Shown here piece after piece: positions 31,397 through 42,149 of a stretch of DNA of 64,000 bases. The position numbers and the translations under genes are program-made. The DNA is from Microlunatus panaciterrae (GTDB taxonomy: Bacteria; Actinomycetota; Actinomycetes; Propionibacteriales; Propionibacteriaceae). Under the pieces are notes generated by a model. It was not told the DNA's origin. It did no database searches and saw only the letters and a list, made by a program, of their open reading frames with translations. The stretch lies in contig NZ_JAFBCF010000001.1 in assembly GCF_016907535.1 (NCBI RefSeq), forward strand, positions 1,488,001 to 1,552,000, in the 5' to 3' direction. Within the stretch, counting starts at the first letter, position 1. Each line of letters opens with the position of its first letter.

Positions 31397-32269
31397 ATGA
31401 GACGCCTGCCCTTGCTGACCACCCTCGACCGGCTCGAGAACGCGGCCTGGCTCGACCCCGCTGTCGACGAGCTGCGCAAGATCGTCAACGCGGTTGTCCG
31501 GTCGCGATCGCTGCGCGACGTGCTGCACGGCGTCCCGCTCGGTCACCCGGTGCATCCACTCGCAGTCCAACTGCCGTTGGGTGCATGGATCTCCGCCGGC
31601 GTACTCGACACCATCCCTGGCACCGAGCGGGCGGCGCGGATCCTCGTCGGTCTCGGCATCGCCGGCGCCCTGCCGGCTGCCGCGGCCGGCTACACCGACT
31701 GGGCTGAGCTGCACGAGCAGCAGCAGCGGGTGGGCATCGTCCATTCCAGCGGCAACCTCGTGGCCACCAGCCTCTTCGTGGCGTCCTTCATCCAGCGCGG
31801 TCGCGGCCGGCAGGGCAGTGGCAAGGCGTTGGGGTTCGCGGGGCTGGCCGTGGCCGGCGTGGCCGGATACCTGGGCGGTCACCTGAGCTATCGGCAGGCA
31901 TCCGGGGCCAACCATGCAGAGGACATCCCGCACCGTGTCCAGCCTGGCTGGCAGCCCCTCGACCGGCTGGAGAACCTCTCCGAGGGCCGGCTCGATCAGC
32001 GGATGCTGGGCGAGATCCCGTTGCTGGTGTTCCGTCGCGGGGACGAGGTCAGCGTGCTGTCCGATGTGTGCAGCCATCTCTCCGGACCGCTGCACGAGGG
32101 CGAGATCACCGAGCAGGGCGACCCTTGCGTGGTCTGTCCCTGGCACGGCAGCGTCTTCTCGCTCCGTTCGGGTGACGTTGTCCACGGCCCCGCCACCGCA
32201 CCTCAGCCCAGCTTCGAGACGAGGGTGCGCGACGGGCTGGTCGAGATCAACCTGCCCGGCGCCGGCTGA
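31397..32269 (+). CDS. DUF2231 membrane protein fused to a Rieske [2Fe-2S] domain
   Basis: 290 aa. The N-terminal half has HPLAVQLPLGAWISAGVLD and three to four membrane segments of the DUF2231 type; the C-terminal half (about residues 190-285) is a Rieske domain with CSHLSG and CPWHGS supplying two Cys and two His ligands for the iron-sulfur cluster. The fusion suggests electron transfer at the membrane; partners are not evident. ATG 31397 follows AGAGAGG. Its 3' end overlaps the convergent kinase gene by 23 bases. Confidence 0.88.
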   Translation: MRRLPLLTTLDRLENAAWLDPAVDELRKIVNAVVRSRSLRDVLHGVPLGHPVHPLAVQLPLGAWISAGVLDTIPGTERAARILVGLGIAGALPAAAAGYTDWAELHEQQQRVGIVHSSGNLVATSLFVASFIQRGRGRQGSGKALGFAGLAVAGVAGYLGGHLSYRQASGANHAEDIPHRVQPGWQPLDRLENLSEGRLDQRMLGEIPLLVFRRGDEVSVLSDVCSHLSGPLHEGEITEQGDPCVVCPWHGSVFSLRSGDVVHGPATAPQPSFETRVRDGLVEINLPGAG

Positions 32270-32768
32270 GGGTCTGCAGCACCCGCTGCACAGCTGCTGT
32301 CGGCGTCAGCACCGCCGTGTCGAGGACCAAGGGGTCCCGGTCCCATGGTCGGTAGTCCCGGTTCTCGATCTCTTCCCAGGTCGGTGGGACGAGACCGTCG
32401 ATGTCCAACGTGCGGTGCTCGACCCGCCGACGGTGCTCCGCCCGGTCGGAGCAGATGATCTCGATCTCCATCGCGCCGGCTCCGGCCTCGGTCGCGACGG
32501 CGAGCCAGGCGTCGCGGGTGATGCCGAGAGGGTTGACCGACTCGGCCACCACATCCAGTCCGAGCTGCAACTGGTCGGCCGCCAACCGGTAGCCGACCGC
32601 GTAGCCCACCACCCCGACCGGGTGTGCCAACTCGGAGTGCTCGACGATGGCGGCCTCGATGGTATCCACCCGGAGGTACGCGGCGCGGAGCCGGCGCGCC
32701 AGCGCGCGGGCGACAGTGGTCTTGCCGGTCGCCGGCAGCCCTCCGATGCTGAACAGGGTGGCGGTCAC
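32247..32768 (-). CDS. P-loop kinase-like AAA protein
   Basis: 173-aa small nucleotide-binding protein with Walker A GLPATGKTT near the N-terminus, an RVDTIEAA segment and a predicted lid region (DRAEHRRRVEHR). It resembles gluconokinase/APS-kinase-like or zeta-toxin-like P-loop proteins of unknown substrate. GTG start at 32768. It follows the glycosyltransferase gene by 10 bases on the same strand and so may be the last gene of that operon, but its role there is unknown. Confidence 0.75.
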   Translation of the reverse strand: MTATLFSIGGLPATGKTTVARALARRLRAAYLRVDTIEAAIVEHSELAHPVGVVGYAVGYRLAADQLQLGLDVVAESVNPLGITRDAWLAVATEAGAGAMEIEIICSDRAEHRRRVEHRTLDIDGLVPPTWEEIENRDYRPWDRDPLVLDTAVLTPTAAVQRVLQTLSRRRAG

Positions 32769-32778
32769 CTCGATGCTC

Positions 32779-34182
32779 CTATCCGGACGGCTTGCCGGCC
32801 TCGAACCCGACTCTGACCATGGTGCCCCAGTCCTTGCGCCCGCGCAGGTAGCGCCACATGCCCTTGATTTGCCACAGCACGTTCAGCTGTCGGTAGCCGA
32901 GGTTCTCGGCCAGACAGAAGGCCAGCAGCCTGGGCAGGTCGCGGGTCTCGAAGGGCTCCTCGGAAGACCACTGGTGCATCACCAGCGCCGACCCGGTGAG
33001 CACTACCCCCCAACCGTACGAGAGCAGCAGGAAGAGCGCCGCGAACTGCCAGTTCAGGGCACCCAGGAACATCGACAGCACCAGCCCGGCCACCCCGACG
33101 ACCTGCAGCACCGGTCCGAACAGCTCGACAACGAGGAAGTAGGGCGCGGCCACCAGCCCGAGCCGGCCATAGCGTGGGTTGCCGATCATCCCCCGGTGGC
33201 GCCACATGACGTCGGCAAGTCCGCGCTGCCAGCGGTCCCGTTGCCGGCCGAGAGTTCGCGCCGACTCCGGCACCTCCGTCCAGGCGATCGGGTCCGGCAC
33301 GAAGACGACCTTGGCAGGACCGGACGTCTCCAGCCCGCGACGACGCAGCCGTACCACCAGCTCCATGTCCTCACCGACCGTGTCGTGCCGGTAGCCCCCC
33401 GTCCCCAGCACGGCGTCGCGGCGGAACATCCCGAAGGCGCCCGAGATGATCAGGTTGCCGCCCAACCGGTTCCACCCGAGCCGGCCGAACAAGAACGAGC
33501 GCAGGTACTCCATGGTCTGGATGCCGGGCAGGATCTTCCTGGCGGCACGATGCTGCACCACCCGGCCGTTGCTGACCACCGAGCCGTTGACGACATGGAT
33601 GGTGGCGCCGGCTGCGACCGTGTCCTCGTCGGCGATGAACGGTCGGACGAGCCGCAGGAACGCATCGGGCTCGATCAGGGTGTCGGCGTCAATGGCACAG
33701 ATCAGACTGCCGCTGGCCACGTTCAGACCGGCGTTGAGCGAGTCGGCCTTGCCTCCGTTCACCTTGTCGACGACCACCAGGCTGCGGTGCCGTCGGGACC
33801 GGTACAGGCCCAGCACGGGCTGGGTCGAGATCTTGCCACCGAACGCAGGATGCACCGCCTGCAGGTCGAACTCCTCCTGCAGCAGCGCAAGCGTCGCGTC
33901 GCTGCTGCCGTCGTTGATCACCACCACCTCGAGGTTGGGGTAGCTCAACGTGAGCAGCGACCGTACGCTGGCGGCGACGGTGGCGGCCTCGTTGTAGGCC
34001 GGTGCCAGCACACTGACCCGGGGGGTCGCCGACGAGGTCAGCAGCCGTTGCCCGCGAGCCGCCCAGATCGCTCGACGATGGCGCACCATCTCGACCCAGG
34101 CGCAGCTCAGCAGCAAGGTCTGGAACCCGTTGGCGAAGACGAAGTAGGCCACGAACAACCACGCCAGCAGGACCTGGACCAT
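32779..34182 (-). CDS. Processive family-2 glycosyltransferase (PgaC/hyaluronan-synthase-like)
   Basis: 467-aa integral membrane polysaccharide synthase. One N-terminal helix (VLLAWLFVAYFVFANG) is followed by the GT-A domain with APAYNEAATV, VVINDGSSDAT, the acidic AIDADTLIEPDA, the acceptor GEDMELVVRLRRRG and the processivity motif RQRDRW, then about three C-terminal helices. Such enzymes polymerise and export beta-linked glucosamine, hyaluronan or cellulose-like chains. ATG 34182 lies 2 bases after the HEAT gene stop with GGGAGA upstream. Being last in an operon with signalling proteins, it is the probable output. Confidence 0.88.
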   Translation of the reverse strand: MVQVLLAWLFVAYFVFANGFQTLLLSCAWVEMVRHRRAIWAARGQRLLTSSATPRVSVLAPAYNEAATVAASVRSLLTLSYPNLEVVVINDGSSDATLALLQEEFDLQAVHPAFGGKISTQPVLGLYRSRRHRSLVVVDKVNGGKADSLNAGLNVASGSLICAIDADTLIEPDAFLRLVRPFIADEDTVAAGATIHVVNGSVVSNGRVVQHRAARKILPGIQTMEYLRSFLFGRLGWNRLGGNLIISGAFGMFRRDAVLGTGGYRHDTVGEDMELVVRLRRRGLETSGPAKVVFVPDPIAWTEVPESARTLGRQRDRWQRGLADVMWRHRGMIGNPRYGRLGLVAAPYFLVVELFGPVLQVVGVAGLVLSMFLGALNWQFAALFLLLSYGWGVVLTGSALVMHQWSSEEPFETRDLPRLLAFCLAENLGYRQLNVLWQIKGMWRYLRGRKDWGTMVRVGFEAGKPSG

Positions 34183-34184
34183 GA

Positions 34185-35264
34185 TCAGCTCTCCCGGGCT
34201 TCGACAGCGAACGCCGGCAGCTCGAGGACATGGCTCGCCATCCCGGCCACCGCCTCGTCGACGTCGGTCGTCGCCCGGCGCAGATAGAGCCGGCCGGCCG
34301 GCCCCAGGGCACGCAACCCACCCGCGGCAGCGCGGCTGACCTCCCACACCGGGTCGCTCAGCCGAGCCCGGAGCAGACCCGCGGCCTGCCAGTGCTCGAG
34401 CGCACCGAGGCCGTGCGCCGCGGCGGAACGGACGCGCGGGTCGGCATCGTCCAGCAGGCTGATCAGCACCTCAGCCGCCCTGGGGTCCGCCGTCGCGGTC
34501 AACAGCTGCGCTGCCGCCGCTCGCACCGTCGGTCGGCGGTCGGCGCAGCCGTGCACGGCGACGGCTCCGAGCTCGATCCCGCCGTGGTGGGAGGCCAACC
34601 GGAAGGCCGTCTCTCTCCGCGCCGACTGATCGGACTGCAGATAGCGCAGCAACGCCGGAAGTGCCGCCCGGCCGGCCACCAGCAACGCGTCCTCGGCAGC
34701 GAATCTGCACAGGGCCACCTGATCGTCGAGCAGGGCGAACAGGCGGTCCAGTCCGGCGTCGGTCGGATGCCTGGCCACCCAGGCCGCCGCCTCCGCCCGC
34801 ACCTGCGGGTGGCGGTCGTCAACCAGCCGCAGCAGGTCGGGCTCATCGGCCCCCATCAGGTTGAGGGTTCGGACTCCGTGCAGCCGCCGCCACCATCGGC
34901 TGCTGCTGGTCCAACGGGCCGCAGTGGCCGCCAGCTGGGCGGACCCGCCCGACTCCAGGACGCGCCGCGCGGTGCCGTCGGTCAGCTGGCCGGTGAGATC
35001 CGACACCGTGCTGACCTGGTCTCGCCGAGACAGACTGGCGACCTTGGACTCACCGGCAGCGGTCTCTGGGCCGATTTCAGCCCCCTCCGCGGTCATCAGC
35101 TCGCCCAGGGTGGCGAGCCACGCCTCCCTGTTGTCCCCCCACCGTCGGCGTCGTCCCGCCCGTACGAGCGTCACCGTGAACAGGACGACGAGCAGCAACA
35201 CCGCAGCGATCGCGGCAACGACAAGAGCACCGTTCAGCAGGTCGGTCGTGGGTTCCATGATCAA
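34185..35264 (-). CDS. Membrane-anchored HEAT-repeat protein
   Basis: 359 aa. An N-terminal transmembrane helix (ALVVAAIAAVLLLVVLFTVTLV, about residues 13-34) is followed by a basic stretch and then about six HEAT/PBS-lyase-like helical repeats with recurring phrases such as HPQVRAEAAAWVARH, DPRVRSAAAHGLGALEHW and DPVWEVSRAAAGGLRALG. No enzymatic motif is seen. It is likely a cytoplasm-facing protein-binding scaffold at the membrane. It sits between the multi-REC protein (4-base overlap) and the glycosyltransferase (2-base gap), suggesting it links signalling to the synthase. Confidence 0.82.
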   Translation of the reverse strand: MIMEPTTDLLNGALVVAAIAAVLLLVVLFTVTLVRAGRRRRWGDNREAWLATLGELMTAEGAEIGPETAAGESKVASLSRRDQVSTVSDLTGQLTDGTARRVLESGGSAQLAATAARWTSSSRWWRRLHGVRTLNLMGADEPDLLRLVDDRHPQVRAEAAAWVARHPTDAGLDRLFALLDDQVALCRFAAEDALLVAGRAALPALLRYLQSDQSARRETAFRLASHHGGIELGAVAVHGCADRRPTVRAAAAQLLTATADPRAAEVLISLLDDADPRVRSAAAHGLGALEHWQAAGLLRARLSDPVWEVSRAAAGGLRALGPAGRLYLRRATTDVDEAVAGMASHVLELPAFAVEARES

Positions 35265-37300
35265 CCGTCCAGGGCTCGACGGATCCGTTGCATCAGTACC
35301 GGGACGCTGAACGGTTTGGCGACATGGTCGAAGGCACCCGACTGGAGGGCGGAGAGCACCTCCGCCTCACCGGCCCGTGCTGTCAGCATGATCACCCTGG
35401 TGTGAGCCAACACGGCCTTCTGGGACAGCAGACTGAGCAGGTCGAGCCCGTTGATGCCGGGCAGGTCGACGTCCAGCACGATCACCCGGGCTGACAGGCG
35501 GTCGGGCCCGGTCAGTCGGCGCAGTGCCTCCGCGCCGTCGCGCAGCTGCCGGCTGCTGAGTCCGCGGCTCTCGAGCGCGTGCTGCAGCAGCCCCGCCAGC
35601 GCGTCGTCGTCCTCGATGACCAGCACATCCGTGACCGTCTCGTCACCGCTTGGCCGCCATCCGGTGGCCACCACACGGTCGCCACCGGCCCGCTTGGCCA
35701 CTGCGACAGTCCCGGTCGCGGCCCGGAACAGCTGGTGGAGGTCCTTGCCGTCAGGCCCGAGCTCGGCGACAGCTGCGCTGAAGGTGACGGAGACCTGCTG
35801 GCCGTTGAGCTCGAACCGCCGTCGCTGAAACTCGTTTCGGAGAGCCGCAACCCTGGCGACTCCGTCATCGCGGTGCATGCCGTACATCGCGACGACGAGC
35901 TCCTGGCCGGCCCAGCGACCGACTACGTCGTCACCGCTGAAGGCGTTCGCCAGCACGTCGGACAGGCTCTGCAGCACCGAGTCGCCGAAGGTGTGCCCAT
36001 GCTCGCGGTTCAGCCGTTTCAGGCCGTCGACATCCAGCAACCCGATCGACAAGGGCTGCTGCTCGCCGGCCGCGAGCGCCTGCAGCCGGGCGAACTGCAC
36101 CTCCAACCGGTGCCGGTTCACCAGGCCGGTCAGTTGGTCGTTCTCGGCCAGCCCACGCAGCAGCCGCACCCGTTCGAGCCTGTTGTTCACCCGGCTGACG
36201 AGCTCGGGGCCGACGAAGGGCTTGGCCACGTAGTCGTCCGCACCCGCCTCGAAGACCGATCGCACCTGGGTAGGCCCGATGCTGCCGGTGAGAATGAGCA
36301 CCGGCAGTGCAGCCCAGGTGGGGTCTGCCCGCACCATCCGACAGAGCTCCAGGCCGGTGGCACCGGGCATGTCCACATCCAGCAGCAGCAGGTCCGGGTC
36401 CGTCTGCCTGAGGGCCTCCCACACCTGGAGGGGGTCGGTGACAGCCGTGATCTCGGTCAACGTCCCGGCGAACAGCTCCTGGATCGCCTCAAGCAGGAGC
36501 GGGTCGTCATCCACGGCGAGCACCCGGGCGGGCTGCGGCTGCCGCCGCGCCACGGTGTCCAATGCCGCTGTCAGCAGCCGATCGGGCGGCAGCGTGGCGG
36601 ACAGAAAGCCGGTGACTCCGGCCCGGATAGCTGCGACCCGGTCGACGTCCTCGTCGGTGGTGAGGATGAAGGTGTCGGGACGCTCCCCCTCACCGGTCAA
36701 ACCGGTGAGCAACTCCAGTCCCTCCCCGGGGGGCAGCTCGGGATCGAGCAGCACGATGTTCGGCCGGTGACGCTGCTGGAGGGTGATGGCCCGTTCAAGG
36801 TCGGGTGCCCAGTGGCCGACCAGACCGCGTGCCCGGGCAGCGTGGATCAGCTTCGGAGCCAGTTGACGGTCGGGATGTGCCAGCAGCAGATGACCCGCCA
36901 CTTGCTGGTTCTCGGCGGTCGAGTCGTTCGCCGAGCGGCCGGTCGGGTCATCCGATGCTTCACGCGACGCCAGCGGTCTGGACAGGTCGACCTGCAGGGC
37001 CTCCAGCCAGCTCGTCGCGGCCAGCAGCTCGGCGGGGTCCACCAGCGCACCACGCTCGAAGAATCGTTCCAGCCGCTCCGACAGCTCCGAGGACCGGGGA
37101 TAGCCGAACGTGCCCGCGGAACCGGCCAACTGGTGCGCCGCCCTCTTCGCGGACTGCCGCTGCTCGGCATCGAGCCGCCCCTCGAGCGTCGCCATGACGG
37201 CGTCCTCCAGCTCGGTCACTCTCGCCAGGTTGGTCTGCAGCGCACGTTCGGCAATGGCCTCCAGTGCGTTCTGCGCCCGGTCTGCCGCCTCCTGCGTCAT
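35261..37300 (-). CDS. Hpt-REC-REC-GGDEF(degenerate)-REC signalling protein
   Basis: 679 aa. Domains in order: Hpt with phospho-acceptor His56 (AHQLAGSAGTFG); a divergent receiver about 136-250 that keeps Asp186 but lacks the acidic pair; a full receiver about 258-378 (VDDD, Asp308, Lys360); a GGDEF-like domain about 385-550 with LTGLVNRHRLE but AGQEL (464-468) where GGDEF/GGEEF is expected; a second full receiver about 557-678 (EDDD, Asp610, KPF). The altered A/I motif means diguanylate cyclase activity is doubtful. It overlaps the response regulator upstream and the HEAT gene downstream by 4 bases each, so the genes are coupled. Confidence 0.88.
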   Translation of the reverse strand: MTQEAADRAQNALEAIAERALQTNLARVTELEDAVMATLEGRLDAEQRQSAKRAAHQLAGSAGTFGYPRSSELSERLERFFERGALVDPAELLAATSWLEALQVDLSRPLASREASDDPTGRSANDSTAENQQVAGHLLLAHPDRQLAPKLIHAARARGLVGHWAPDLERAITLQQRHRPNIVLLDPELPPGEGLELLTGLTGEGERPDTFILTTDEDVDRVAAIRAGVTGFLSATLPPDRLLTAALDTVARRQPQPARVLAVDDDPLLLEAIQELFAGTLTEITAVTDPLQVWEALRQTDPDLLLLDVDMPGATGLELCRMVRADPTWAALPVLILTGSIGPTQVRSVFEAGADDYVAKPFVGPELVSRVNNRLERVRLLRGLAENDQLTGLVNRHRLEVQFARLQALAAGEQQPLSIGLLDVDGLKRLNREHGHTFGDSVLQSLSDVLANAFSGDDVVGRWAGQELVVAMYGMHRDDGVARVAALRNEFQRRRFELNGQQVSVTFSAAVAELGPDGKDLHQLFRAATGTVAVAKRAGGDRVVATGWRPSGDETVTDVLVIEDDDALAGLLQHALESRGLSSRQLRDGAEALRRLTGPDRLSARVIVLDVDLPGINGLDLLSLLSQKAVLAHTRVIMLTARAGEAEVLSALQSGAFDHVAKPFSVPVLMQRIRRALDG

Positions 37301-37677
37301 CCCTGCCAGCCGAGCAGCTCGGCCACCTCGTTCGAGAGCGTCATCGGGTCGAACGGTTTGGCGATCACTCCTGCCAGCTCGAGGTCGGCGAACTCACGCC
37401 GATCCCCCGCCTGCACCTTCGCTGTGAGCAAGATCACCGGGATCTCACGAGTCTCGGGATCGTCCTGCATATGGCTGAAGGTGGTGGGGCCGTCCATTCC
37501 CGGCATCATCACGTCCATCAAGATCGCGTCCGGCTGGTGCTCGCGGGCCTTGGCCCATCCCTCGGCCCCACAGGCCGCAGTAGTGACCTGCCATCCGCCC
37601 ACCAGCTCCAGCGCCATCTGCGCGACCTCACGGATCGAGTCGTCGTCATCGACGACCAGGACCCGTCGGCTGGTCAT
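37297..37677 (-). CDS. Stand-alone response regulator (receiver only)
   Basis: 126-aa single receiver domain: acidic pair in VVDDDDS, phospho-acceptor Asp55 (LMDVMMPG), Thr in LLTAK and Lys in AKPFDP. Without an output domain it probably shuttles phosphate or acts by protein contact, as CheY/Spo0F-like proteins do. ATG 37677 is the start that leaves only the receiver; the longer frame is non-conserved. It begins the operon and overlaps the Hpt protein gene by 4 bases. Confidence 0.9.
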   Translation of the reverse strand: MTSRRVLVVDDDDSIREVAQMALELVGGWQVTTAACGAEGWAKAREHQPDAILMDVMMPGMDGPTTFSHMQDDPETREIPVILLTAKVQAGDRREFADLELAGVIAKPFDPMTLSNEVAELLGWQG

Positions 37678-37900: not shown

Positions 37901-38494
37901 TCAACGGAACTCTGCGCGGTAGTACGTCTGAGCGTCGATCGTCTCGACGTCGACGTCCGCCAGCCGGTGCAGAGCCAGCTCGATGTTGCGACCGAACCGC
38001 ATCGACTCGTTGTTGTAGGCACAGACGTCGTAGGCACACACGGCCCGGTCATCCACCAGTCGCCCGACGACCGCGTCGAGCATCTGGAAGAACAGCCGGC
38101 TCAGCCGCTGCCTCGGGTCGGCGAGGGTGAACCCGAGGTAGTAGATGGCGTCCCGGGCGGCGTGCTCGGGATACCGGCTGGTGAAGTACTCCGGGCTGAT
38201 CCACGGCACGGTGGACAGGTCCTTCGTCAAGGTGGTCAGGCCGATCGGCTGGCCCGCGTCGTCCCAGGCGACGTACTTCCAGACCCGCGGGTCATGCATC
38301 TCCTCGAAGAACTCGTCGCGGTGCAGCACCTGCCGAGCCACCGCCCGGTGCCGCAGTGGCTCGAAGGCGACCAGATAGAGCTGGTAGAACATCTCGGCGT
38401 GCTCGACCGACACCTCGCTCTCGACGGTGATCTTGGTCAGCTCGCCGAACTTGCGGCGCGGCGCGGGCTCCGGCTGCGGACTAACGCTGCTCAT
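37901..38494 (-). CDS. GNAT-like acyltransferase paired with arginine decarboxylase
   Basis: 197-aa soluble protein with the look of a GNAT fold (WKYVAWDDAGQPIGLTTLTKD as the central strand pair, split here; then DAIYYLGF and a helix), but the acetyl-CoA P-loop is not clear. I do not recognise a named family. ATG 38494 lies 14 bases inside the end of the arginine decarboxylase gene, implying coupled expression and a shared pathway, for instance acylation of agmatine or a product made from it. That role is a guess from context. Confidence 0.6.
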   Translation of the reverse strand: MSSVSPQPEPAPRRKFGELTKITVESEVSVEHAEMFYQLYLVAFEPLRHRAVARQVLHRDEFFEEMHDPRVWKYVAWDDAGQPIGLTTLTKDLSTVPWISPEYFTSRYPEHAARDAIYYLGFTLADPRQRLSRLFFQMLDAVVGRLVDDRAVCAYDVCAYNNESMRFGRNIELALHRLADVDVETIDAQTYYRAEFR

Positions 38495-39035
38495 GGGTGA
38501 TCCATCCGCTCCTCTTGTAGGTCGCCACCACCACTGCACAGACGGGATGGTCATGGCATTCCACAGAGGCGATCACCGATCCGCCGTGATGGTAGCCACC
38601 GCCGCGGCCGACGGAGAGATCATCAAGGCTCGCCCGCAGATCATGCTCCAGCGACTTTCGAGAGGAGGCGTGGTGCTCGACAAAGAGCCCGGCACCGGAC
38701 TGGTCGTCCCGGCTGGACCAGGCCACACCGGCCCAGGCCTGCTCGTTCGGAGTGGAGGCATAGGCGTCGGCGTAGACGCAGTACAGCATGTCACCGTAGC
38801 CACCGGCCAGCTGCTCGGACCCGTCGACCTCGAGAACGTCACTACCGGGGGGAATCACCGAGCTGAGCCTGATCAGGTTGAAGTTGGCGACACCGGCATC
38901 GCGCAGCGCGGCGTCGAACGCCGAAAGACGGGTGCGGCCGATACCGGTTCCACTGCTGACCCTGATGGTCAACCCCTGTTGCTGCACTTTGCCCGAGTGT
39001 TGCGCATGCTCGCTCGTTGTCAGCGCGAGGTTCAT
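38481..39035 (-). CDS. Pyruvoyl-dependent arginine decarboxylase-like protein
   Basis: 184 aa. The sequence NFNLIRLSSVIPPGSDV matches the self-cleavage region of pyruvoyl arginine decarboxylases, where a serine after the LSS turn becomes the pyruvoyl group and the chain splits into beta and alpha subunits. GTGIGRTRLSAFDAAL and GGYGDMLYCVYADA are also family-like, and a Glu-containing LFVEHHASS segment follows. The enzyme would convert arginine to agmatine and CO2. ATG 39035 has AGGAAGGACC upstream. It overlaps the acyltransferase-like gene and follows the hybrid kinase on the same strand. Confidence 0.82.
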   Translation of the reverse strand: MNLALTTSEHAQHSGKVQQQGLTIRVSSGTGIGRTRLSAFDAALRDAGVANFNLIRLSSVIPPGSDVLEVDGSEQLAGGYGDMLYCVYADAYASTPNEQAWAGVAWSSRDDQSGAGLFVEHHASSRKSLEHDLRASLDDLSVGRGGGYHHGGSVIASVECHDHPVCAVVVATYKRSGWITHEQR

Positions 39036-39094: not shown

Positions 39095-41998
39095 TCAGGA
39101 TCTCCGCTCGGCGATGCTGGGCTGCAGGCGGCCGGTGGCCAGATCCAGCAGGTCCACCACCCTGTCCTCCAGTTCCTGCGGGGTCACCCGACCCTTGGTG
39201 AGGAAGATCGTGCGACCCAATCGGAGCCCGTCTCGGTCGCGGTCATCCACGTCCGCAGCGCTGTAGACGATCAGCGGGACATCCACCAGCTGACCGTTGC
39301 GGCGCAGGATCTCCACCACCTCGGTTCCTGAACCGTCCGGCAGCCGCAGGTCCAGGATCAGCACCTGCGGCTGGTTCTGCGCGCAGTAGTCCAGGGCAGC
39401 TTGGCGGGTGCGGGCATGGAACACGGTCAGCCCGCGACGCTGCAGCAGGGTGGAGATGACACTGGCGAGATCATCGTCGTCCTCCACCATCAGCACCGTG
39501 CCGCGGGTGTGATGCCCCGAGATGGCCGCAGCGACGGTCCTGGCCAGCCGCTCCTCATCGATCGGCTTGACCAGCCAGCCGTCCGTCTGCGCCGCGGTGT
39601 CCGGATCCAACGCCGGGGTCAGGCCGGAGATGACGACGATCGGGACGTCCTGCGTCTCGCGGCCACGTTTGAGCGCGCTTACGACATCCGCTCCAGTGGT
39701 GCCGGGCATGGCCAGGTCGAGGAGCAGCGCAGCCGGCAGCTCGGCCGAGACTAGGGCAACAGCCTGTTCTCCGTCGGTGACTCCCACCGTTCGGTAGCCG
39801 CGTTCGGTGAGCAGCTCGCAGAGCACCCGGACCACGTCCGGATCGTCGTCGCAGACCACCAGTCTCGGGCCTTCACCGGACGGCTCGACCGGAGGGTCCT
39901 CCACGATCCTGGGCATGGTGAAGATGAAGACCGCCCCGCCATCTGCGCGAGCCTCGGCCCAGATCCGGCCACCGAGGCGTTCCACGATGCTGCGGCTGAT
40001 CGCCAGTCCAAGACCGGTGCCGCCCTTGTCCCGGGCATCGGAGGAGTCCACCTGCTCGAACCGCCCGAAGATCTGGTCGAGCTTGTCCTGAGGGATGCCC
40101 CGACCGTTGTCCATGACCCTGAACTCGACCATGGTGTCCTTGGGAACCGCATGCACCTCCACCGATGAGTCTTCGGGTGAGAACTTGATCGCGTTCCCGA
40201 GCAGGTTGATCAACGTCTGGACGACGCGGTCCGCGTCCGCGCGCACCCGCCCGTTGGAGTCCAGCACCTTGATCTTCACCTTGGCCTGGGCGGCGATCCC
40301 CTGCACCTGCTCGACTGCAGCGTCGATGAGATCGGCGGCAGTGTAGGTAGCCACCTCCATCGGCATAGTGCCGGACTCGATCCGCTCGATGTCCAGAATG
40401 TCGTTGATCAGCCGGGTCAGGCGCTCACTGCTGTCCAGGGCGATGCCCAGCATCCGCTGTGCCGAGGCAGGCAGCTCGCCCACGGCACCTCCCGCCAGCA
40501 GGCCGAGCGAGCCGCGGATGGAGGTCAACGGCGTGCGGAGCTCGTGGCTGACCACGGAGACAAACTCGTTCTTCAGCTTGTCGACCTCACGACGCTGGGT
40601 GACGTCGCGGAAGACCACCACCGCACCCTGGACCTGTCCGTCGTTGGTCAGCGGGCTCGCCGTCACCTCGACGGGGACCTGCTGACCGGTCTTGCGCAGG
40701 TAGAGGTCCTCCTCGGATGCTGTGCTGATGCCCTCCCGGATGGCTTCGGAGATGTAGCAGTTCTCCCAGGGGTAGGGCTGACCGTCCTCCTGGTCGGCGT
40801 GGAAGGCCGCATGCGCGTCCTGCCCGATCAGCTCCGTCTGGCTGTAGCCCAGCGCCCGCGCAGCGGCGGGGTTGACGAACGTGATGACCCCCTGGGTGTC
40901 GACGCCGTAGATGCCGTCCCCAACCGAGGCCAGCAACAGCTCGGCTCGCCTGGTCATGTCGCGCAGGGCGCTGGTCCGCTCGCTCACCATGCCTTCCAGG
41001 CCCTTGCGCAGGGTGTCGTTGTCGATGATCAGCAGGATCTGGCGTGCCGCGACGGCGAGCACCACGACCAGCCACAGTCCGATCAGACCGATCGTCAGCC
41101 CACCGGAGCGTGCCTGGATCAGTCCCGTGATCGAAGCCGTCACGAAGAGCGTGAAGGTGACCACCGTGCCCATCACGGGAGACGCCTCGGTCGGCTCCTC
41201 CACGTCCTGCTGCACGGCGAGTGCTGCCGGGTGCCGAGCCGCCAACGCGATCAAGGCGTAGCCGGCGATCCAGCCCAGGTCGAGGATCGTGCCGACACCG
41301 AACCCCTTGTGGGTGGCGCTCAGCACGGCGAACGTCAGGTCGGTGACGGCGTAGAAGGCGAAGCCCGCACTTACCAGCACCAGGGCGGGTCGGTCGTTGC
41401 GGCTGCTGCGGACGATCAGCAAACCCGCCAGGGTCGCCACTGCGACATCGAACAGCGGCAGCAGCAGGACGAAGAAGCGGCTGAGCGACATCTCCGAACC
41501 CGGCGGAACCAACTGCGGGAAGACGGTGCCGCTCACGATCCTCAGCACCGATCCGCCGATGACAATGCCGTCCAACACCAGTCTGGCCAGCTCCGTCCCT
41601 CGGCGTCGCACAGAGGGGAACGTGATCAAACCGGCCATGCTGAGCGGAAGACCGATGAAGAAGGCCACGTCACCGGCGATCGCGAGCGAGGGCGACAACC
41701 CGGCAACGGTCACGATCAGGATCCACAGGTTGCCGGCTGCGGCCAGTGCACCGGCTATGGCCAGGAACAACCAGGCCCGTCGGCGGCGCCCGATCGAGCG
41801 CAACGCCCGATCACCACAGCTGAGCGCGGAGGCGACACCACCCCCGATGAGGCCCACGTCACTGATCAGCAGCTTGGGTATCGCATCCAGGTGGCTCAGC
41901 AGGAGGGCCCCGAAAAGGCAGACGATCAGGGCAGTCACGAGGCAGAGCCGGAGGAAGCGTGCGTTCGGCTGTACGAGTGAGGCGGGGGAGGCCTTCAT
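39095..41998 (-). CDS. Hybrid histidine kinase, membrane sensor with PAS and two receivers
   Basis: About 967 aa. The N-terminal 320 residues form about eight to nine membrane helices of an unrecognised sensor type, then a PAS domain (about 350-470, NPAAARALGYSQTELIG in part), HisKA with His485 (SHELRTPL), an HATPase domain (NAIKFS, DNGRGIP, GGTGLGLAIS) and two C-terminal receivers (LLLDLAMPG and LILDLRLPDGSG). It could pass phosphate to the stand-alone receiver and the Hpt protein encoded 2-4 kb downstream on the same strand; this link is inferred. Start ATG 41998 (GTG 42016 possible). Confidence 0.9.
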   Translation of the reverse strand: MKASPASLVQPNARFLRLCLVTALIVCLFGALLLSHLDAIPKLLISDVGLIGGGVASALSCGDRALRSIGRRRRAWLFLAIAGALAAAGNLWILIVTVAGLSPSLAIAGDVAFFIGLPLSMAGLITFPSVRRRGTELARLVLDGIVIGGSVLRIVSGTVFPQLVPPGSEMSLSRFFVLLLPLFDVAVATLAGLLIVRSSRNDRPALVLVSAGFAFYAVTDLTFAVLSATHKGFGVGTILDLGWIAGYALIALAARHPAALAVQQDVEEPTEASPVMGTVVTFTLFVTASITGLIQARSGGLTIGLIGLWLVVVLAVAARQILLIIDNDTLRKGLEGMVSERTSALRDMTRRAELLLASVGDGIYGVDTQGVITFVNPAAARALGYSQTELIGQDAHAAFHADQEDGQPYPWENCYISEAIREGISTASEEDLYLRKTGQQVPVEVTASPLTNDGQVQGAVVVFRDVTQRREVDKLKNEFVSVVSHELRTPLTSIRGSLGLLAGGAVGELPASAQRMLGIALDSSERLTRLINDILDIERIESGTMPMEVATYTAADLIDAAVEQVQGIAAQAKVKIKVLDSNGRVRADADRVVQTLINLLGNAIKFSPEDSSVEVHAVPKDTMVEFRVMDNGRGIPQDKLDQIFGRFEQVDSSDARDKGGTGLGLAISRSIVERLGGRIWAEARADGGAVFIFTMPRIVEDPPVEPSGEGPRLVVCDDDPDVVRVLCELLTERGYRTVGVTDGEQAVALVSAELPAALLLDLAMPGTTGADVVSALKRGRETQDVPIVVISGLTPALDPDTAAQTDGWLVKPIDEERLARTVAAAISGHHTRGTVLMVEDDDDLASVISTLLQRRGLTVFHARTRQAALDYCAQNQPQVLILDLRLPDGSGTEVVEILRRNGQLVDVPLIVYSAADVDDRDRDGLRLGRTIFLTKGRVTPQELEDRVVDLLDLATGRLQPSIAERRS

Positions 41999-42127: not shown

Positions 42128-42149
42128 CCCTTTGTTGATCCAACAAGGG
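42128..42149. promoter_or_regulatory. Inverted repeat in the kinase/wHTH intergenic region
   Basis: CCCTTTGTTG, then ATC, then CAACAAGGG form a near-perfect palindrome (one unpaired base) 38 bases before the wHTH start and between two divergent genes. It looks like a regulator site; the binding protein is unknown. Confidence 0.4.

Follow-up and report, generated by a model that had tools for sequence, protein, structure and literature searches.

A membrane-anchored HEAT-repeat protein encoded before a PgaC-like glycosyltransferase, often behind a receiver: a putative phosphorelay-controlled synthase system in Microlunatus panaciterrae and its relatives

The window analysed here, a 64,000-nucleotide stretch of the Microlunatus panaciterrae genome, contains four closely packed minus-strand genes, running from 37677 to 32779 as an earlier note on this DNA had placed them, which would form a signalling-to-polysaccharide system. 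From 5' to 3' these encode a receiver-only (REC-only) protein of 126 amino acids (aa) at 37297..37677, which matches Pfam Response_reg and has the phosphorylation residues DD, D, T, and K intact; a large protein of 679 aa at 35261..37300, with Pfam matches to Hpt, Response_reg, and GGDEF in the order Hpt-REC1-REC2-GGDEF-REC3, the GGDEF domain being degenerate; a HEAT-repeat protein at 34185..35258 (Pfam HEAT_2/HEAT), of 357 aa from the ATG at 35258 or 359 aa from a TTG at 35264; and a polysaccharide-synthase-like membrane glycosyltransferase of family 2 (GT2) of 467 aa at 32779..34182 (Pfam Glyco_tranf_2_3). Comparison with other loci indicates that the conserved unit is the predicted N-terminally anchored HEAT protein encoded directly before a PgaC-like GT2, often behind a receiver. 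On balance, it is slightly favoured that this is a synthase-dependent polysaccharide system in which a phosphorelay ends on a receiver acting through HEAT on the GT2, without cyclic di-GMP (c-di-GMP). The earlier reading, in which signalling reaches the synthase by way of the HEAT protein, is strongly supported in outline by gene order across phyla, but it was drawn too narrowly.

When related loci (labelled with L-numbers) were gathered by their HEAT protein, the sample was of 50 loci: besides L006, L007, and L012, these were seven loci of the class and forty of the phylum. The GT2 is the next gene on the same strand in 43 of these and is fused to HEAT in one. Counted among the 43 are L073, L086, and L089, where the GT2 is 193, 103, and 722 bases away, and the reading frames of L086 and L089 look broken; the weak HEAT matches G072:C12 and G075 (L008, L009) are left out of the counts, as is the phylum match G507:C31. 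The remaining six are L065, which is at a contig edge, and five loci that gave no GT2 match (L081, L083, L087, L088, L094), four of which belong to another HEAT group. There is no GT2 match elsewhere in the flanks, the fused, L086, and L089 copies aside, the query being the window GT2, which distant GT2s could escape. In L079 (6982-9789) HEAT and GT2 are read as one frame of 935 aa; this fusion was rejected as proof of contact, since the copy in the same genome, L073, is frame-broken with a shortened HEAT frame and sequencing error is possible. The HEAT protein is patchy in the near group, where it is found in 5 of 146 genomes at E<=1e-5, own genome included and two of them weak, while a HEAT profile at E<=1e-12 identified 8 of 296 class genomes and 40 of 296 phylum genomes, also with the own genome included. 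Two genomes of the same genus group carry L006 and L007. In L012, from a metagenome-assembled genome of the Acidimicrobiales, the Hpt protein, HEAT, GT2, and a REC-Hpt gene are present, all with 4-base overlaps.

The same pairing is seen when the GT2 is the starting point. A profile of 24 HEAT-linked GT2s, searched over the 296 class genomes, matched 16 genomes at E<=4e-179; the next 14 genomes come after a gap, at 4e-44 or weaker. All 16 have HEAT directly upstream, and the 14 next-best GT2s show no HEAT or receiver match, either in 2-7 kb upstream or in the whole stretch. At E<=1e-80 the GT2 was present in 48 of 296 phylum genomes and 8 of 146 relatives. Seventeen places absent from the HEAT search were added, of which L183 ends at the start of the GT2 and is uncounted, while the other 16 all have HEAT directly upstream, bringing the total to 32/32 testable loci; contig-edge GT2 fragments (G544, G530, G532, G573:C437) were left out. 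Eight class loci and sixteen further loci were found by the GT2 alone.

The pairing extends beyond the phylum and into the Archaea. A tblastn search of plasmids with the HEAT query returned nothing and the window GT2 gave matches, the best 20 of 40 records being considered and 16 opened (those other than H6, H7, H17, and H19). Members of the GT2 family on plasmids include those of haloarchaea, Deinococcus, Alphaproteobacteria, Bacteroidota, and Bacillota. In all 12 opened members HEAT is upstream, 11 by profile and one by a sub-threshold Pfam match, the gene upstream in Emticicia having a weak HEAT_2 match of 25.0 bits against 27.7. HEAT is directly upstream in the haloarchaea Haloarcula halophila, Halosolutus, and Salinirubellus, and likewise in Deinococcus radiophilus, Mesorhizobium ciceri, Erythrobacter, Devosia, Legionella adelaidensis, Bacteroides finegoldii, Planococcus, and Paenibacillus. 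The four lower-scoring plasmid GT2s (Halorussus, Sphingomonas, Kocuria, Sulfitobacter) have no HEAT upstream.

Receivers accompany the pair less strictly. In 34 of the 50 HEAT-first loci a receiver match, on either strand, is present no more than 1.5 kb upstream of HEAT, and receivers at the start of HEAT often overlap its frame. Among the 16 class loci found with the GT2 profile, 15 have a receiver adjoining HEAT (14 of them seen in flanks of 1.5 kb, the other being L024), and in L022 it is about 1.8 kb upstream and not adjacent. There is also a receiver in 12 of the 16 further GT2-first loci and upstream in 7 of the 12 plasmid loci, including a plain receiver-HEAT-GT2 order in Haloarcula and Salinirubellus, with kinases or PAS proteins nearby. 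Hpt recurs as well: in the REC-Hpt gene of L012, and as a stand-alone gene adjoining the GT2 on the opposite strand in Mesorhizobium and, by annotation, in Devosia. The earlier note had looked to conservation of the whole gene order. What is conserved is HEAT-GT2 and, more loosely, receiver-HEAT-GT2, but not the full set of four, which was rejected as the conserved unit, being complete only in L020 among the 50 loci, with its Hpt protein specific to one clade; in L006 and L056 a contig end cuts the locus short, and in L007 the REC-only gene is missing upstream. Separately, a divergent GT2 subgroup, with 85-109 bits to the window GT2, follows HEAT without a receiver match in L059, L061, L068, L078, and L093.

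In the window, the residues for a His-Asp phosphorelay are intact in Hpt, REC-only, REC2, and REC3, but not in REC1. The Hpt domain (approx. 36998-37222, minus strand, as are all domains of the large protein) has the motif HQLAGS, with the His codon at 37135. REC1 (approx. 36551-36895) has lost the acidic pair and the Lys, while REC2 (approx. 36176-36529) and REC3 (approx. 35270-35632) retain their phosphorylation residues; these domain assignments are by Pfam. The candidate source of phosphate is a hybrid histidine kinase (39095..41998, minus strand), with Pfam PAS, HisKA, HATPase, REC, and REC domains and, by hydropathy, a multi-helix membrane N-terminus. It is 39% identical over 873 aa to the kinase of L020, the gene for which is directly before REC-only, followed by the large protein, HEAT, and GT2; the REC-only protein at the equivalent place in L020 is 54.8% identical to that of the window over 124 aa. 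Pfam detects no DNA-binding domain in any of the cluster's signalling proteins, which would mean that the relay should end on a protein.

The large Hpt-REC-REC-GGDEF-REC protein is a clade-specific input, limited to L007, L012, L020, L055, L056, and L057, with only its end visible in L006, where it is cut before the GGDEF motif. Identity to the window protein is 48% in L007, 47% in L020, 36% in L055, and 34% in both L012 and L056, and Hpt itself is recognised in L007, L012, L020, and L055. Within this clade REC1, detected in three rows, is degenerate in each of them, and REC2 is degenerate in 4 of 7, whereas the phospho-Asp, Thr, and Lys of REC3 are kept in 8 of 8, L056 being without one residue of the acidic pair. 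It is the end of the REC3 coding region that meets the start of HEAT.

The HEAT protein of the window matches HEAT_2 (PF13646) at 64.0 bits against a cut-off of 27.7. That it is membrane-anchored agrees with hydropathy, which gives one strongly hydrophobic N-terminal segment at residues 3-37 (about 35148-35252, minus strand), with an alpha-solenoid after it; such a segment is present in 32 of the 33 HEAT proteins examined. The sequence RRRRW comes right after the membrane segment, and, by the positive-inside rule for orienting membrane helices, this places the solenoid in the cytoplasm, as predicted. AlphaFold2 models the protein as a solenoid with good confidence (mean pLDDT 83.5); the best structural matches are designed alphaRep and armadillo proteins together with generic HEAT proteins, and therefore the fold alone does not name a partner. 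HEAT solenoids often offer a binding face to partner proteins.

In the proposed mechanism the hybrid kinase would start a multi-step phosphorelay by way of the kinase receivers, Hpt, and a receiver, ending on the receiver encoded immediately before HEAT, which would be REC3 in the window and a separate receiver in many relatives. This end point is suggested by the intact sites together with the gene order. The phosphorylated or dephosphorylated receiver would then dock on the cytoplasmic HEAT solenoid, and HEAT, sitting on the GT2, would turn polymer synthesis on or off post-translationally; it is the tight HEAT-GT2 linkage that suggests HEAT passes the state on to the synthase. The membrane-anchored solenoid would thus be the control subunit, in place of PilZ or another c-di-GMP receptor. 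The physical contact of receiver, HEAT, and GT2, the gating, its direction, the processivity of the GT2, and the nature of the polymer are inferred, and it is plausible, as had been proposed, that HEAT senses phosphorylation and gates the synthase.

Several observations weigh against this mechanism. In 16 of the 50 HEAT-first loci the 1.5 kb upstream gives no receiver match (of these, L058, L087, and L088 run into the edge of the contig, and L085 is neighboured by a fusion of receiver and kinase, with the receiver further off), and there is none in 4 of the 16 further GT2-first loci or 5 of the 12 plasmid loci, HEAT-GT2 being without an upstream receiver match in Legionella, Deinococcus, Bacteroides, Planococcus, and Paenibacillus. 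All members behind the GT2 profile are HEAT-linked, which makes the GT2-first search a test of family purity and not a blind one, this being partly answered by the gap in scores between 4e-179 and 4e-44. The structure model of the GT2 is poor, its pLDDT of 41.9 being too low for a fold search. The receiver tree did not place REC3 and the stand-alone receivers either in one lineage or in separate ones. To these can be added intact REC-GGEEF neighbours in 9 related loci, all of one clade, and the gene at L074:9736-12033, in which four MshEN domains are fused to a receiver with the phospho-Asp changed to Glu, directly before HEAT-GT2.

In the chief rival explanation HEAT is not a switch but a subunit required for assembly or stabilisation of the synthase, with the receivers acting elsewhere or only modulating, for which the relation of PgaD to PgaC is a model. 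Such a role would account for the loci without receivers and for HEAT being tied to the GT2 more strictly than the receiver is (16/16 against 12/16 further loci, and 12/12 against 7/12 on plasmids). The placing of receivers at the HEAT start, often in overlapping frames, the intact REC3 in the window's clade, and the usual partner-binding face of HEAT solenoids all speak for a signalling role instead, and a purely structural HEAT is possible but rather unlikely.

Control by c-di-GMP, with the large protein as a diguanylate cyclase or as a degenerate-GGDEF receptor reporting to HEAT or the GT2, is improbable. The GGDEF domain of the window (approx. 35678-36145) is degenerate, as first described, with AGQEL at 35897-35911 (Pfam and residue check) in the signature position, and the Arg of the I-site is also lost; the intact GG(D/E)EF catalytic signature of PleD-type diguanylate cyclases is therefore not found in this protein. 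Six of seven clade members are degenerate (AGQEL, AGQEI, THDGF, AGDRF, GASEF, GGGEF), and L020 alone keeps GGEEI. Two GGDEF domains are present in the genome, which is one contig of 4.07 Mb, and each is degenerate (AGQEL in the window, SGDRF elsewhere), while the EAL and PilZ searches gave no match, the PilZ control matching in 5 of 14 genomes; nor is there PilZ in the eight window genes scanned by Pfam. From this, a working c-di-GMP circuit is unlikely in this genome, the search having covered GGDEF, EAL, and PilZ, with HD-GYP and MshEN outside it. The intact REC-GGEEF neighbours and the L074 protein, which would be a c-di-GMP-type input at the same place before HEAT-GT2, do favour such control in part of the family; of the 14 related-locus proteins scanned with Pfam, MshEN is beside the cassette in L074 only. 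A precedent is NfrB of Escherichia coli, described as a GT2 run by MshEN and c-di-GMP (PMC8669469). The other GGDEF protein of the genome (L100, contig 879522-879989), with SGDRF, adjoins a histidine-kinase-like reading frame.

The window GT2 scores 91.1 bits against Glyco_tranf_2_3 (Pfam cut-off 27) and has the motifs INDGSSD, AIDAD, GEDMEL, and RQRDRW. D91, D165, D167, D272, and Q314-R315-R317-W318 are invariant in the 24 aligned members, and correspond to the Asp, DxD, ED, and Q(Q/R)xRW that we take to be the motifs of processive GT2 synthases, from which we infer processivity and a polymer product. Its description as PgaC/hyaluronan-synthase-like is apt as a resemblance but not as membership: assignment to PgaC/IcaA was rejected, with 133.6 bits against the TIGR03937 equivalog cut-off of 422.3, and no equivalog cut-off is reached among the 25 NCBIfam families listed. 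Hydrolase-like proteins of about 700-790 aa accompany the GT2 in 12 of 50 loci, as separate genes nearby in L007 (11573-13963), L056 (4621-6762), L064, L067, L069, L070, L071, L077, L086, and L092, and fused to the GT2 C-terminus in L075 and L084. Four of the separate members were scanned with Pfam and gave no match, and the family may be a secreted or membrane-bound glycoside-hydrolase barrel. A search of the own genome with the L007 query gave no match, though, being without a positive control, it shows little.

The genes around the plasmid cassettes are similarly suggestive. Some of the organisms with an outer membrane have an added export-type gene: a YaiO barrel is inserted in the cassette in Mesorhizobium and Legionella and is downstream in Emticicia, and a TPR protein is in the cassette in Erythrobacter and Devosia, and also in Deinococcus; the Bacteroides locus has neither. 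Behind the GT2 of Halosolutus are glmS and a sugar-phosphate nucleotidyltransferase, while the Legionella locus has a nucleotide-sugar dehydrogenase and epimerases. These neighbours would be consistent with export of a sugar polymer, which in Halosolutus may be one of hexosamine. YaiO barrels are in or beside the cassette in three Gram-negatives, L131 (the Legionella adelaidensis plasmid), L134, and L136, which suggests that the YaiO family may have a role in polymer export. That the GT2 is instead a single-sugar or glycolipid transferase, the operon tuning the envelope rather than making exopolysaccharide, is very improbable: the absence of an equivalog assignment among the families listed, with a product unreadable from sequence, leaves room for it, but it sits poorly with the invariant QxxRW and Asp motifs, the TPR and outer-membrane barrel neighbours in several Gram-negatives, and the hydrolase-like partners.

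The junctions within the window's four genes are as first reported: 4-base overlaps at REC-only/large protein and, with the TTG start, large protein/HEAT, and a 2-base gap at HEAT/GT2. If HEAT starts at ATG 35258, the second is a 2-base gap. The fixed stoichiometry that had been read from this packing does not follow, as overlapping frames in an operon suggest translational coupling only. Among the 43 separately coded HEAT-GT2 pairs, an in-frame start at a 4-base overlap is present in 23, a count biased by the start nearest to the overlap having been picked. Ten bases past the GT2 is a small kinase-like P-loop protein (AAA_33 by Pfam; 32247..32768, minus strand), possibly the last gene of the transcript, for which phmmer and BLAST found no relative in the 50 related loci. 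Two genes separate the hybrid kinase from the REC-only gene: a pyruvoyl-dependent arginine decarboxylase (38481-39035, minus strand, from its sequence and family searches) and a GNAT-like protein (37901-38554, minus strand), which has no Pfam match and is called GNAT from a reading of its sequence. Their frames overlap, they have no BLAST relatives in the 50 loci, and they are not at that place in L020. The location of the arginine decarboxylase between kinase and receiver gene raises a possible link to polyamines. No promoter-like site was found at the locus by the promoter scan, and the terminator scan gave one terminator-like site, at 42129, fewer than expected from the shuffle mean of 2.4.

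Most of the known synthase-dependent exopolysaccharides are under the control of c-di-GMP. To our knowledge many actinobacteria and haloarchaea have little or no c-di-GMP signalling (of these, the window's genome was checked here). For the switching of their synthases the HEAT-GT2 pair with adjoining receivers offers a concrete, testable answer, and would unite genes annotated separately as "HEAT repeat domain-containing" and "glycosyltransferase family 2" into one system across two domains of life. The case is evenly balanced for a wider generalization, that this is a class of synthase common to Bacteria and Archaea, in which HEAT is the obligate control subunit, phosphorylated receivers rather than c-di-GMP are the usual ligand, and lineage-specific inputs use the same HEAT port. 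That these inputs would comprise a stand-alone receiver, an Hpt relay, an MshEN-receiver, and a kinase-receiver could as readily hold as fail. Among the matches listed in the open-access literature, no description of a HEAT-GT2 or receiver-HEAT-GT2 system was found.

Of the known systems, PgaC/IcaA (TIGR03937) is the best NCBIfam match, with the same catalytic motifs and membrane GT2 layout, and is a synthase controlled after translation, as is predicted for the window's system. It differs in that the window GT2 is below its cut-off and that the constant partner in the window's family is HEAT; neither PgaD nor PgaB is among the eight window genes scanned with Pfam. The solved structures nearest to the GT2 by sequence, at about 40 bits, are those of the cellulose synthase BcsA, which carries a PilZ domain, though PilZ is absent from the window GT2 by Pfam and from the search of the own genome. 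The middle of the large protein resembles the PleD type, REC-REC-GGDEF, for which PRK09581 is the best NCBIfam match (194.6 bits, cut-off 474), but it has in addition an Hpt and a C-terminal REC, has lost the GGDEF signature, and scores below the cut-off. The MshEN domain of Nfr-type synthases is not present in the window GT2 by Pfam. The NfrBA-YbcH system of E. coli is built on a GT2 that synthesises an exopolysaccharide; it has a control domain of its own and, as in several Gram-negative relatives of the window's system, a partner that is a TPR protein or an outer-membrane barrel (PMC8669469), whereas the predicted control parts of the present system, the receiver and HEAT, are on separate proteins.

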